A DNA stretch of 59,393 nt from Haloferacaceae archaeon B1-Br10_E2g22 (lineage in GTDB: Archaea; Halobacteriota; Halobacteria; Halobacteriales; Haloferacaceae): NCBI GenBank assembly GCA_001563795.1, contig LKML01000004.1, forward strand, positions 1 through 59,393, given 5' to 3'. Positions within the stretch are counted from its first letter, which is position 1. Every line of letters begins with the position of its first letter. Below the pieces are notes generated by a model. That model saw nothing but the letters and a program-made list of their open reading frames with translations, was not told where the DNA came from and did not search any database. Shown in pieces: positions 10,427 through 25,360 of the stretch. Both the position numbers and the translations under genes were made by a program.

Positions 10427-10775
10427 ACTCGGTGTAGCAACTCGGTAGGCATAACCCTGTTTGCGATGATAATTCTGTTTGTTTTTACAATTCAGTAGAT
10501 TTGTGGGTAGTACGTGGTTTGTATCATCACATCCACATTTGTTCGCGAGAAACCGTTGTCGGCTGGTGGGTTCAACTGAGAACCATCCAACGGTATGAGG
10601 AACCATCCTGCGCTATGAGAACGCACCACGCACAGCTAGCAACCCGAAGCCGTTAAACGACTCTCCGAAGTATTCACACCAACTCGCTGGCAAACGGGCC
10701 ACCAGTGGGCACCCGGTTCGCCGGGACGAAATGTGGTCGACTCCTCGACTGAATCGCAAGCGCCCGAGGATAACA
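10427..10775. other. Non-coding region before rpl15e, with short tandem repeat
   Basis: I find no gene here. At 10577-10620 there are two tandem copies plus a partial third of a 19-20 base unit (tgagaaccatcc then tgaggaaccatcc then tgagaac). Near 10709-10724 is a small hairpin (cccggttcgccggg). A TATA-like element for rpl15e is not obvious; the AT-richest point is ccgttaaacg near 10650. Confidence 0.4.
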
Positions 10776-22423: not shown

Positions 22424-24160
22424 TTACTCGAGTTCCTCGACGAGATCAGCCGGCAGTGTGAGCCGAACGCGGGTTCCAGTCTCGTCGGTGTCAAACGTCA
22501 CAGAGCCGCCAATGCTGTCGGTTCCCCACTTGACGAGCCACAGCCCGAGTCCGCTGCCGTGTTCGAGATCAGTCTCTTGGGCGTTGTCGAGAACAGTGAT
22601 TTCGTGGCCAGGAATACCCGAACCTTCATCCACAACAGAAAGCGTTGTCGTGGCCTCATCGTAGCTGATTGTGATCTCCGAGTCGGTGTGTCTAGCGGCG
22701 TTTTCGACTAACTCCTGGATAATCGAACCGAGAACGGTTGGATTGATGCGAACCACAACGGCGGCTGGAACCGACCCTGAAACAGGAATAGCGCCGTAGT
22801 CGGCTCTGACCGCCTCGAGTGCGTCTGTGATGATCTCGCCGAGTTGAATCGGTGTCTCCGCAAGCGGGTCGGCCTCGAGTACGTTCTCAGCGCGCTGGGC
22901 CTTTTTGCCGATCGTCACCAGATCATCGAGAATCGATTCGACTTTTTGTTGGTAGATGTCGGATTCGGTGCCGCCGTCGGCCATCACGCCGACATAGCCT
23001 TTGGCCGCATTGAGGTCGTTGCGGAGATTGTGTCTGAGAATCCGGTTTAGCACTTGGATGCGCTGTTGGCGGCGGCGTTCGGCAGTAATGTCCGTAAAGA
23101 CGACTGTCCGGCCGATTGGAGTATCGCTGTTGTCGGTTGCAGTCGTCATCACCGCCTCGATAATCGTCTCACTGTTCGGCATTCGGAAGACAACCGGTTC
23201 GGACTCACGAAGGTCGCTCGGTGCGATTCTGTCGGGAAGAATCGTATCGAACGGCGCACCAATGGTCTCGAGTGTAGAGACCGAAAACAACTCGCTGGCC
23301 GCCGGGTTGAGATCCGAGATGCTGTTTTTTCTGTTGACGACGACGATCGCGGTATCCGAAGCATCGAAAGCCGTCTGCCGGCCGACTGTTCTCGAGGCCG
23401 GCAGTTGGTCGAACAGGTCGTATTTCGTTGTCGTAACCCAGAGTCCAGCAAGGCCAACCGAAAGCCCGACGATTCGAAAGCCGCTGAGCAACTGGAAATC
23501 GGTGAGCAGTCCGAACTGGTACAGATACCCAATCAGCCACGGAAAGACGACCGGCACCGAGAGGCCGACAACTGCAGCCATCCGGAACGGCCGGTGGTTG
23601 GTTGCGGTCGTATACAACAATCCGACACCAACGCCGATGGCAGCACCAGTTCCAAGCACCTCAATGACTGCACCGAACTGATGGAGGCTGCTCCGAACCG
23701 TAGAGTGGATGCTAATGAGCCCGAAGGTGTCGGTTGCGCCGACAAGTCCGTTTATCATGACGACCGTGAACGTGGCCCCACCGATTGTGGTCAGTGTGAG
23801 TTTCTCACGCCGGCCAATCCGTTGGGTATAGCGCAGCACAAACCAGAGCCACATGAAAATGCCACTCACGACTAATAGCTCTGAAAGCAGATCCATGCTG
23901 ACAAACATTGCTTGCACTCCAGTCGGGACGACTGACTCGAGATGGATGAGTTGTGCCCCATCAGTGATTCCGTAGGTTCCAAACGCATAGATGAGCATCG
24001 ACTGGGCGACAAAGCTACTGCCCCACAGAATCGAAAACGTCGCCAGACTGTCGAGGCCAATCTCGTCGTACCGTCTGAACAGATAGCCACCGAACGCAAC
24101 GTAGCCCAGACTCACCCCGCCAGCGAGTATCGCCAACTGAACAGACGACAGTACCGTCAC
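22424..24160 (-). CDS. Sensor histidine kinase with 7TM and PAS domains
   Basis: 578 residues. Seven membrane helices (about 1-225) form a histidine kinase N-terminal 7TM region. A PAS domain follows (about 240-350; AFDASDTAIVVVNRKNSI). The H box is in RILRHNLRNDLNAAKGYVG. The ATP-binding domain has the N box ELVENAARHT, G1 box DEGSGIPG and G2 box GSGLGLWLVKW. It is a membrane histidine kinase of the common haloarchaeal type. No response regulator gene is adjacent. It is convergent with the phosphohexomutase gene and divergent from pcnA, with the hairpin array between. Confidence 0.92.
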   Translation of the reverse strand: MTVLSSVQLAILAGGVSLGYVAFGGYLFRRYDEIGLDSLATFSILWGSSFVAQSMLIYAFGTYGITDGAQLIHLESVVPTGVQAMFVSMDLLSELLVVSGIFMWLWFVLRYTQRIGRREKLTLTTIGGATFTVVMINGLVGATDTFGLISIHSTVRSSLHQFGAVIEVLGTGAAIGVGVGLLYTTATNHRPFRMAAVVGLSVPVVFPWLIGYLYQFGLLTDFQLLSGFRIVGLSVGLAGLWVTTTKYDLFDQLPASRTVGRQTAFDASDTAIVVVNRKNSISDLNPAASELFSVSTLETIGAPFDTILPDRIAPSDLRESEPVVFRMPNSETIIEAVMTTATDNSDTPIGRTVVFTDITAERRRQQRIQVLNRILRHNLRNDLNAAKGYVGVMADGGTESDIYQQKVESILDDLVTIGKKAQRAENVLEADPLAETPIQLGEIITDALEAVRADYGAIPVSGSVPAAVVVRINPTVLGSIIQELVENAARHTDSEITISYDEATTTLSVVDEGSGIPGHEITVLDNAQETDLEHGSGLGLWLVKWGTDSIGGSVTFDTDETGTRVRLTLPADLVEELE

Positions 24161-24275
24161 TGCTCACAATCAGTATACAACTGATAAATAAGTTGCTGGT
24201 GGCCACCGTATGCCCAGATCAGCGCCCAAATGTTTGCTTTTTGCCGACAGGCCACCTAAGACAGCGAGGGAGTCC

Positions 24276-24391
24276 CGGCGTTCACGCCGTTGACGAGACC
24301 TACGGTCTCGTTTGCACATCAGAACGCTCAGCGTTCTGAGGACGTTACCAGAACGCAGGCGTTCTGGTTGCCCACCAGACGCAGTCTGGTG
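24276..24391 (-). repeat. Array of five perfect hairpins (possible IS200/IS605-type orphan end or ncRNA)
   Basis: In order on the plus strand: cggcg-ttca-cgccg (24276-24289), cgagacc-tac-ggtctcg (24294-24310), tcagaacgc-tca-gcgttctga (24319-24339), ccagaacgc-ag-gcgttctgg (24348-24367) and caccagac-gca-gtctggtg (24373-24391). Stems are 5-9 bp and perfect, with loops of 2-4 nt. The third and fourth are near duplicates. On the minus strand the array is preceded by a TATA box near 24461. Dense short hairpins of this kind are known at the ends of IS200/IS605-family elements and their guide RNAs, but no transposase gene is present. That origin is inferred. Confidence 0.6.
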
Positions 24392-24456
24392 ACCGGGCGG
24401 GAATCGCGCCATGAGCAACATCCAACCGCATAACATCGCGCTATCCAACTCCCCAA

Positions 24457-24466
24457 TATTATAAAT
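24457..24466 (-). promoter_or_regulatory. TATA-like box reading into the hairpin array
   Basis: On the minus strand the sequence is atttataatatt, a strong archaeal TATA match. Initiation 25-28 nt downstream would start an RNA near 24434, which would then run through all five hairpins. It is about 150 nt from pcnA, so it is less likely to serve that gene. Confidence 0.45.
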
Positions 24467-24583
24467 ACATATCACCACTTTACGCCGGGTGTAGGTGATG
24501 CAGTCTTCGGTATCAGATTGGTGGGCTGTTCGAGGGCCTCGGGCACACAGTAGACAACAGCCACAGTATGTTGAACCGGATGC

Positions 24584-24592
24584 CTTTTTATC
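24584..24592 (+). promoter_or_regulatory. TATA-like box of pcnA
   Basis: ctttttatc is centred about 29 nt before the ATG at 24617 and only 20 nt before the in-frame ATG at 24608. A start site 25-28 nt downstream would fall at the second ATG. This supports 24617 as the true start and a leaderless mRNA. Confidence 0.5.
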
Positions 24593-24616: not shown

Positions 24617-25360
24617 ATGTTCAAGGCCATCGTGAGTGCTGAGACGCTCAAGGATGCACTCGATTCGGTGAGCGTGCTGGTAGACGAGTGTAAAATCCGG
24701 CTCAACGAAGAAGCGCTGTCGATTCGCGCCGTCGATCCGGCCAACGTCGGGATGGTCGATCTCTCCTTAGAGGCTGCAGCCTTCGAGTCCTACGAGGCCG
24801 ACGGCGGCGTCATCGGGGTGAATCTCGGACGGCTTGAGGATATCGCCGGTATGGCAAACAGCGGCGATCTGATCCAACTCGAGCTCAACGAAGAGACCCG
24901 GAAACTCCACATCCAGATCGAGGGGTTATCGTATACGCTTGCTTTGATCGATCCCGATTCAATCCGCCAAGAGCCGGACATCCCGGATCTCGATTTGCCC
25001 GCACAGGTCGTCCTCGAGGGCAGCCAGCTCAACCGCGGGATCACCGCCGCGGATATGGTCTCGGATCACATCTCACTGCGCGTTGATGAAAGCCAAGCGG
25101 CGTTTTACATCGAAGCCGAAGGCGATACCGACGATGTCGATCTAAAACTACCCAGCGACGACCTCATTGCGCTGACTGCTGGGCCGGCCAACTCACTGTT
25201 CTCGCTGGATTATCTCAAAGACATGAACAAAGCGATTCCAAAGGCGACCGAGGTCACTGTTGATCTCGGCGAGGAGTTCCCCGTCAAACTCCATTATGAG
25301 TTCGCCGAAGGGATGGGCCATGTCACCTACATGCTCGCCCCACGAATCCAGAGCGACTGA
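24617..25360 (+). CDS. pcnA: DNA polymerase sliding clamp (PCNA)
   Basis: 247 residues from the ATG at 24617 ([15 protein letters not shown]). This length equals the known haloarchaeal PCNA; an ATG three codons upstream is rejected because of the promoter position. It has the two-domain clamp fold, with [15 protein letters not shown], the interdomain linker near [14 protein letters not shown], and the C-terminal strand [13 protein letters not shown]. The homotrimer encircles DNA and tethers polymerases, FEN1 and ligase. It is a single gene, flanked on both sides by non-coding hairpin arrays. Confidence 0.97.

Follow-up and report, generated by a model that had tools for sequence, protein, structure and literature searches.

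The hairpin array upstream of pcnA in the window, the whole stretch of 59,393 nucleotides analysed here, is very probably nested mobile DNA, consisting of REP-dimer-type units in an orphan IS200/IS605-type end. The preliminary description of this DNA had taken it for a single array of five hairpins, and comparison with other haloarchaeal sequences resolves it into what appear to be two mobile units of two hairpins each, lying within a third palindrome. The array spans 116 bases (24276–24391) and holds five perfect hairpins, as first described, with measured stems of 6–10 bp in place of the 5–9 bp originally given. Its parts and neighbouring features are listed below in order of position.

24251–24273: outer flank of the putative orphan end, GCCACCTAAGACAGCGAGGGAGT; outer boundary approximate
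24274–24287: left arm and loop of the base palindrome with a portion of its right arm, CCCGGCGT TC ACGC; putative orphan IS200/IS605-type end
24276–24289: hairpin 1, stem 6 bp, loop 2
24288–24344, minus strand: unit A, putative two-hairpin mobile repeat (24293–24311, 24319–24339), CGTC...AACG
24293–24311: hairpin 2, stem 8 bp, loop 3
24319–24339: hairpin 3, stem 9 bp, loop 3
24343–24395, plus strand: unit B, second copy, inverted (hairpins 24347–24368, 24373–24391)
24347–24368: hairpin 4, stem 10 bp, loop 2
24373–24391: hairpin 5, stem 8 bp, loop 3
24396–24407: remaining right-arm bases (GG) of the putative orphan element end, with its inner flank CGGGAATCGC
about 24457–24466, direction ambiguous: TATA-like box, ATTATAAATA, outside the repeated sequence
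24583–24590, plus strand: CCTTTTTATCGGGG, probable core promoter of pcnA, before the leaderless ATG at 24617

The five-hairpin array is real and does not arise by chance. Four of its hairpins have stems of at least 8 bp and lie within about 100 bases; in 20 simulated windows (first-order Markov, whole window), a 140-nt stretch never contained more than one such hairpin. The close similarity of stems 3 and 4, already noted in the preliminary description, exists because both are the matching CAGAACGC hairpin of two homologous, oppositely oriented units. The immediate surroundings of the array contain no transposase gene, in agreement with the initial reading. A TATA-like box is indeed present where it had been placed; its direction, given at first as pointing into the array from the right, is ambiguous because ATTATAAATA is nearly self-complementary. 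The stretch 24409–24480 gave no repeat matches in the same genome or in relatives, save short chance-like ones.

The two units stand head to head and have one CG in common (24343–24344, a 2-bp overlap), an arrangement that recurs in other tandem copies, where adjoining units likewise meet in a common CG. If both units are removed and one CG is left, the remaining sequence reads CCCGGCGTTCACGC-CG-GG, a perfect palindrome with an 8-bp stem; the joining of 24274–24287, CG and 24396–24397 gives CCCGGCGTTCACGCCGGG. Hairpin 1 is composed of part of this base palindrome and the CG of a unit. An intact homologue of the base palindrome and its flanks, GAGAATCCCGCCGTTTACGGCGGGAGTGAATCCGACAAC, is found in the same genome (L030:2743–2813) upstream of a tnpB gene (L030:1279–2139), and because of this homologue the base palindrome is identified, from sequence comparison, as an orphan IS200/IS605-type element end. 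Both the likeness to IS200/IS605 ends and the term orphan element, which had been proposed at the outset, are borne out in this respect. The base palindrome and its short flanks may also be a complete short element, a terminal-only PATE. The outer flank GCCACCTAAGACAGCGAGGGAGT recurs in L009 (GCCACCTAATCAGCGAGGGAGTCCCG), and other copies have a comparable CTATCTT...GAGAGAATCCCG, while GGGCGKGAATCGC is common to the window, L009, L011, L016 and L050. In other copies of the base palindrome, units occupy this CG or one very close to it (L002, L003, L006, L010–L016), and unit B occurs alone in a palindrome of this kind at L010, L002, L003 and L006. As only unit B is present in L010, a locus of the same genus, the comparison suggests that unit B was inserted before unit A at the window locus.

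The unit is widespread among haloarchaea. A DNA search with the array in its own genome and 98 relatives returned many partial matches, corresponding to hairpins 2 and 3, hairpins 4 and 5, and the left end. The alignment of 17 copies of the block formed by hairpins 2 and 3 contains 27 double changes and few one-sided ones, with 98.6% of its cells paired, and served to build a covariance model, R1. A covariance-model survey of haloarchaea, as suggested in the preliminary description, gave R1 matches in 84 of 99 haloarchaeal genomes (E ≤ 0.01), with 17 matches in the genome of the window at this threshold and up to at least 55 per genome, where both strands of one copy may count and the best 56 candidates per genome were scored. 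Unit A scores 80.2 bits (E 9.7e-23), the window copy being itself among the training sequences of the model, and unit B, whose hairpins 4 and 5 were not used for R1, scores 33.9 bits (E 6.7e-8). Similar arrays are thus found elsewhere in haloarchaea and also near tnpB genes.

Of the 35 genomes matched by R1 in a sample of the whole phylum, 32 belong to the same order. The three weak matches in other lineages of the phylum (G123, G132 and G156; E 2.7e-6 to 8e-5) may be chance or distant relatives. A pattern scan across 84,980 species detected at least 119 stretches, and all 80 named records among the matches listed are haloarchaeal. Haloarchaeal plasmids carry the unit as well; a phage origin was considered and discarded, phage records having given no match. 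The unit is 53–60 nt long (about 57 nt) and consists of two hairpins with tags outside them, its stems being mostly 8–9 bp and its loops mostly 3 nt. Among 136 distinct units, 125 start with CGTC, whereas the other end is CGTT in 121 and CGTC in 7. The first stem pairs are U-A or C-G followed by C-G in one hairpin, and A-U followed by C-G in the other.

Uninterrupted relatives of the occupied sites define how the unit joins its target. For each of 146 copies, a query made of its two flanks with NN between them was compared with all retrieved loci (E ≤ 1e-6), which yielded uninterrupted relatives for 103 copies, some of them other units of an array and so not clean empty sites; the commonest junction letters are exactly CG in 84. 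The empty sites are paralogous or cross-species homologous sites. Examples are CCCACGGCTTTAGC-CG-TGGGAGGA (L089, L140), CCCTACTG-CG-CTACTC (L017, L046, L106) and, in tnpB genes, CCGAATCAA-CG-CCTGTGGAG (L019, L078, L081 and L084, compared with L098 and L154).

Copies are enriched within IS605 palindromes and in tnpB reading frames. At 35 of 145 sites the joined flanks form a perfect stem of 7 bp or more that includes the CG, compared with 20 of 725 control CGs. A tnpB gene surrounds the unit or lies within about 1.5 kb in 54 of 146 copies, which as the higher-scoring ones are a biased sample of contexts, compared with none of the 29 pcnA loci, a small control from a housekeeping locus. Copies that overlap tnpB keep the reading frame: 18 of 19 have a length of 59 nt, which adds a net 57 nt (19 codons), whereas lengths elsewhere are mixed (Fisher P 5e-6). 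In L023 and in Halar_0577 of the halophilic archaeon DL31, a full-length TnpB with both Pfam domains contains the translated unit. Two further groups of copies stand out by their surroundings. In L099, L100, L113, L145 and L021, from several genomes, the unit occupies one identical position of a conserved sequence. In the relative L054 this sequence runs on into what may be, from a weak Pfam match, a DDE transposase gene, so that IS605 elements would not be the sole host of the unit. In L096, L097, L052 and L080, units lie within tandem repeats of the type CACGGCGCGCGACCTGCCGCGACCTCCGTGTCGC...

It could be argued that the unit is not itself mobile and is merely carried along by IS605 transposition, spreading through recombination between transposon ends. 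Many copies do lie in or near IS605-type sequences, some of them near the tnpA of IS605 elements, and the number of units per genome correlates moderately with that of tnpB genes (Spearman 0.36). However, units are found at various points within tnpB elements, as well as in other elements and elsewhere outside IS605 sequences, each with the CG junction and uninterrupted relatives; they also nest in one another and are present in genomes without a detected Y1 transposase or tnpB, which makes passive carriage unlikely. In searches that were shortened, and with some genomes incomplete, a Y1 transposase match is missing in 34 unit-bearing genomes and a tnpB match in 5. The correlation with the number of Y1 genes is weak (0.30), and together with the 34 unit-bearing genomes lacking a Y1 match in these searches it speaks against a dedicated RAYT-like transposase.

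A model in which the unit itself moves draws directly on its dispersal, the exact units, the empty sites, the CG junction, the sharing of CG in nested copies, the enrichment of hairpin targets and the keeping of frame in tnpB. At the window locus, the end of an IS200/IS605-type element, or a remnant consisting of termini only, would have been left upstream of pcnA. Unit B (a repeat of about 55 bp, together with one CG) would then have inserted at the CG in the base palindrome's 3′ arm, followed by unit A at the CG on the edge of unit B, an order deduced from the comparison of copies. The non-autonomous, REP-dimer-type unit may move or be copied as folded single-stranded DNA, with CGT tags outside its hairpins, CGTC on one side and CGTT on the other, that would join to the target CG; CGs within hairpins, such as the palindromes of IS605 ends, and tnpB coding regions would be its preferred targets. 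IS200/IS605 elements insert next to a short motif, which is left at one side. The single net CG observed would follow from such chemistry. Mobilisation would presumably be provided in trans by an HUH-type nuclease, and the interruption of the palindrome may disable the host element.

The array is probably selfish DNA and not a gene for an RNA. Across 130 distinct units the stems comprise 2226 Watson-Crick pairs, 11 G-U pairs and 22 mismatches, and the inner positions vary freely, by compensatory Watson-Crick changes. Because G-U pairs are almost absent, although a selected RNA would tolerate them, this pattern points indirectly to stems that are maintained as DNA palindromes and may act as single-stranded DNA. 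A structured RNA had been put forward in the preliminary description, and in its fullest form this would be a small RNA of about 180 nt, transcribed on the minus strand from the TATA box and possibly acting on pcnA. Predicted folding is strong on the minus strand (z-score −4.1) and the TATA-like box lies at a suitable distance; the plus strand, however, folds equally well (z-score −5.4), the stretch separating the TATA-like box from the array shows no conservation along with the repeat, and the covariation of the stems is of the DNA type described above. Rfam searches, at the gathering threshold over the window and at a permissive E-value over the array, gave the array no match above chance. 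Elsewhere in the window, positions 10712–10760 match the eL15-Euryarchaeota ribosomal protein leader (RF03144) with 48.9 bits.

The pcnA locus itself also weighs against this small RNA. No convincing unit occurs at 29 orthologous pcnA loci, a single weak match lying 2.5 kb into L181, and pcnA has its own conserved promoter: CCTTTTTATCGGGG, with variable last letters, is found at the same distance in three genomes of the same genus that lack the array (G001–G003). With no Rfam match above chance, no array at pcnA in 29 relatives and stems that covary almost without G-U, a regulatory RNA at this locus is highly improbable. A conserved regulatory element of pcnA was likewise ruled out by the absence of the array from the 29 orthologous loci. 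The gap upstream of pcnA measures about 190 bp in G001 and G003, where a kinase gene is also found upstream, compared with 447 bp here. Judging from these loci, the array was inserted here and does not belong to the control of pcnA; it may nevertheless affect the neighbouring genes. In the window, pcnA is separated from a phosphoglucomutase-like gene by a sensor histidine kinase gene (22424–24160); in G002, of the same genus, pcnA directly follows the phosphoglucomutase-like gene, and the kinase gene has therefore been gained or lost within the genus.

The hairpins might also be the omega RNA or sotRNA guide scaffold of a lost TnpB element, a likeness to guide RNAs that had been remarked upon at the outset. 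Omega RNAs are known from haloarchaea (PMC12558985), and many copies of the unit fall in the 3′ part of tnpB or the right-end region, the places that encode omega RNAs. Among 20 loci, of which nearly all are unit-bearing, only tRNAs exceeded the Rfam gathering threshold; RF02656 and RF02657 thus gave no match there, and in the array the haloarchaeal TnpB RNA families gave none above chance. Furthermore, tnpB elements exist both with and without a unit at the same position, units occur outside tnpB elements, including in the five genomes without a tnpB match, and the base palindrome of the window is of the kind found upstream, not downstream, of tnpB. A guide scaffold accordingly has very little to recommend it, and mobile DNA remains the preferred reading.

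The chances appear evenly balanced that the unit represents a class of REP-like two-hairpin elements, spread across the haloarchaea and so far undescribed, which recognises DNA hairpins, inserts at a CG there, parasitises and may silence IS200/IS605 elements, is tolerated in frame in tnpB and is mobilised by a single-strand nuclease. CGTC-tagged REPs have so far been catalogued in bacteria only, without a known mobiliser (PMC3733652). Here, a family in most of the haloarchaeal genomes searched offers a CG junction, a hairpin preference, nested arrays and filled sites, numbering in the hundreds, with empty relatives. Given the defined junction, the hairpin targets and the pairs of filled and empty sites, the movement of such repeats is therefore testable, for example in tractable haloarchaea. 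In addition, nested units provide a simple explanation for hairpin arrays which can be mistaken for structured RNAs, and the translated copies point to TnpB proteins that tolerate insertions of 19 residues.

Several known systems share features with the unit. REP-like palindromes have been reported from archaea in general in a 2025 survey which does not name haloarchaea (PMC12306157). In REPINs, mobilised by RAYT (IS200-like Y1) transposases, two hairpins likewise form one non-autonomous mobile unit, whereas their GTAG tags and dedicated RAYT gene have no counterpart found for the haloarchaeal unit (PMC3116915). The base palindrome of the window with its short flanks, about 52 bp with putative boundaries and mobility, resembles PATEs and other terminal-only IS605 derivatives (PMC3119063), while the units nested in it are a different element. 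SMR-A of Haloquadratum walsbyi is a haloarchaeal, transposase-free element of about 110 bp with inverted terminal repeats, whose insertion sites are the palindromes near the ends of IS605-type transposons and PATEs (Dyall-Smith et al. 2011, PMC3119063). Its target habit, the near-terminal IS605-type palindrome, is that of the unit; its published description nevertheless sets it apart from a unit of 53–60 nt. In G008, inserts of about 110 bp (L212, L218, L220, L226, L227, L228), bounded by GTAG...CTAC or GTACTCC...GGAGTAC, occupy the tips of IS605-type palindromes and fit the published description of SMR-A, without obvious sequence in common with the unit. Identity of the unit with SMR-A was thus rejected, since the targets are alike but length and, for the inserts in G008, sequence differ. 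Units and these inserts lie side by side in G008, in L218 with a ~110-bp insert inside a CGTC unit; the GTAG end of the inserts recalls GTAG-tagged REPs, and the tnpA genes of this genome are disrupted.

CGTC-tagged REPs, which include dRS3 of Neisseria and RPE-4 and RPE-6 of Rickettsia, are bacterial repeats with 8–9 bp stems, head-head dimers and intragenic copies, without a transposase and without archaeal members; in one species they insert in palindromes, and G-T pairing is frequent (Di Nocera et al. 2013, PMC3733652). The haloarchaeal unit agrees with them in the CGTC tag outside the stem, the 8–9 bp stems, the head-head dimers, the insertion into palindromes and genes and, within the Y1 searches described above, the lack of a known transposase, the tag being complete at one side and a variant, usually CGTT, at the other. 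It differs in its loops (mostly 3 nt, compared with 4–5 nt), in stems of different sequence that do not begin with two A-T pairs, in the rarity of G-U pairs, in its archaeal hosts and in host sites that are largely IS605 ends and tnpB. The haloarchaeal unit is hence closest to the bacterial CGTC-tagged REP dimers, being an archaeal variant that differs in its target habit, whether by descent or by convergence.
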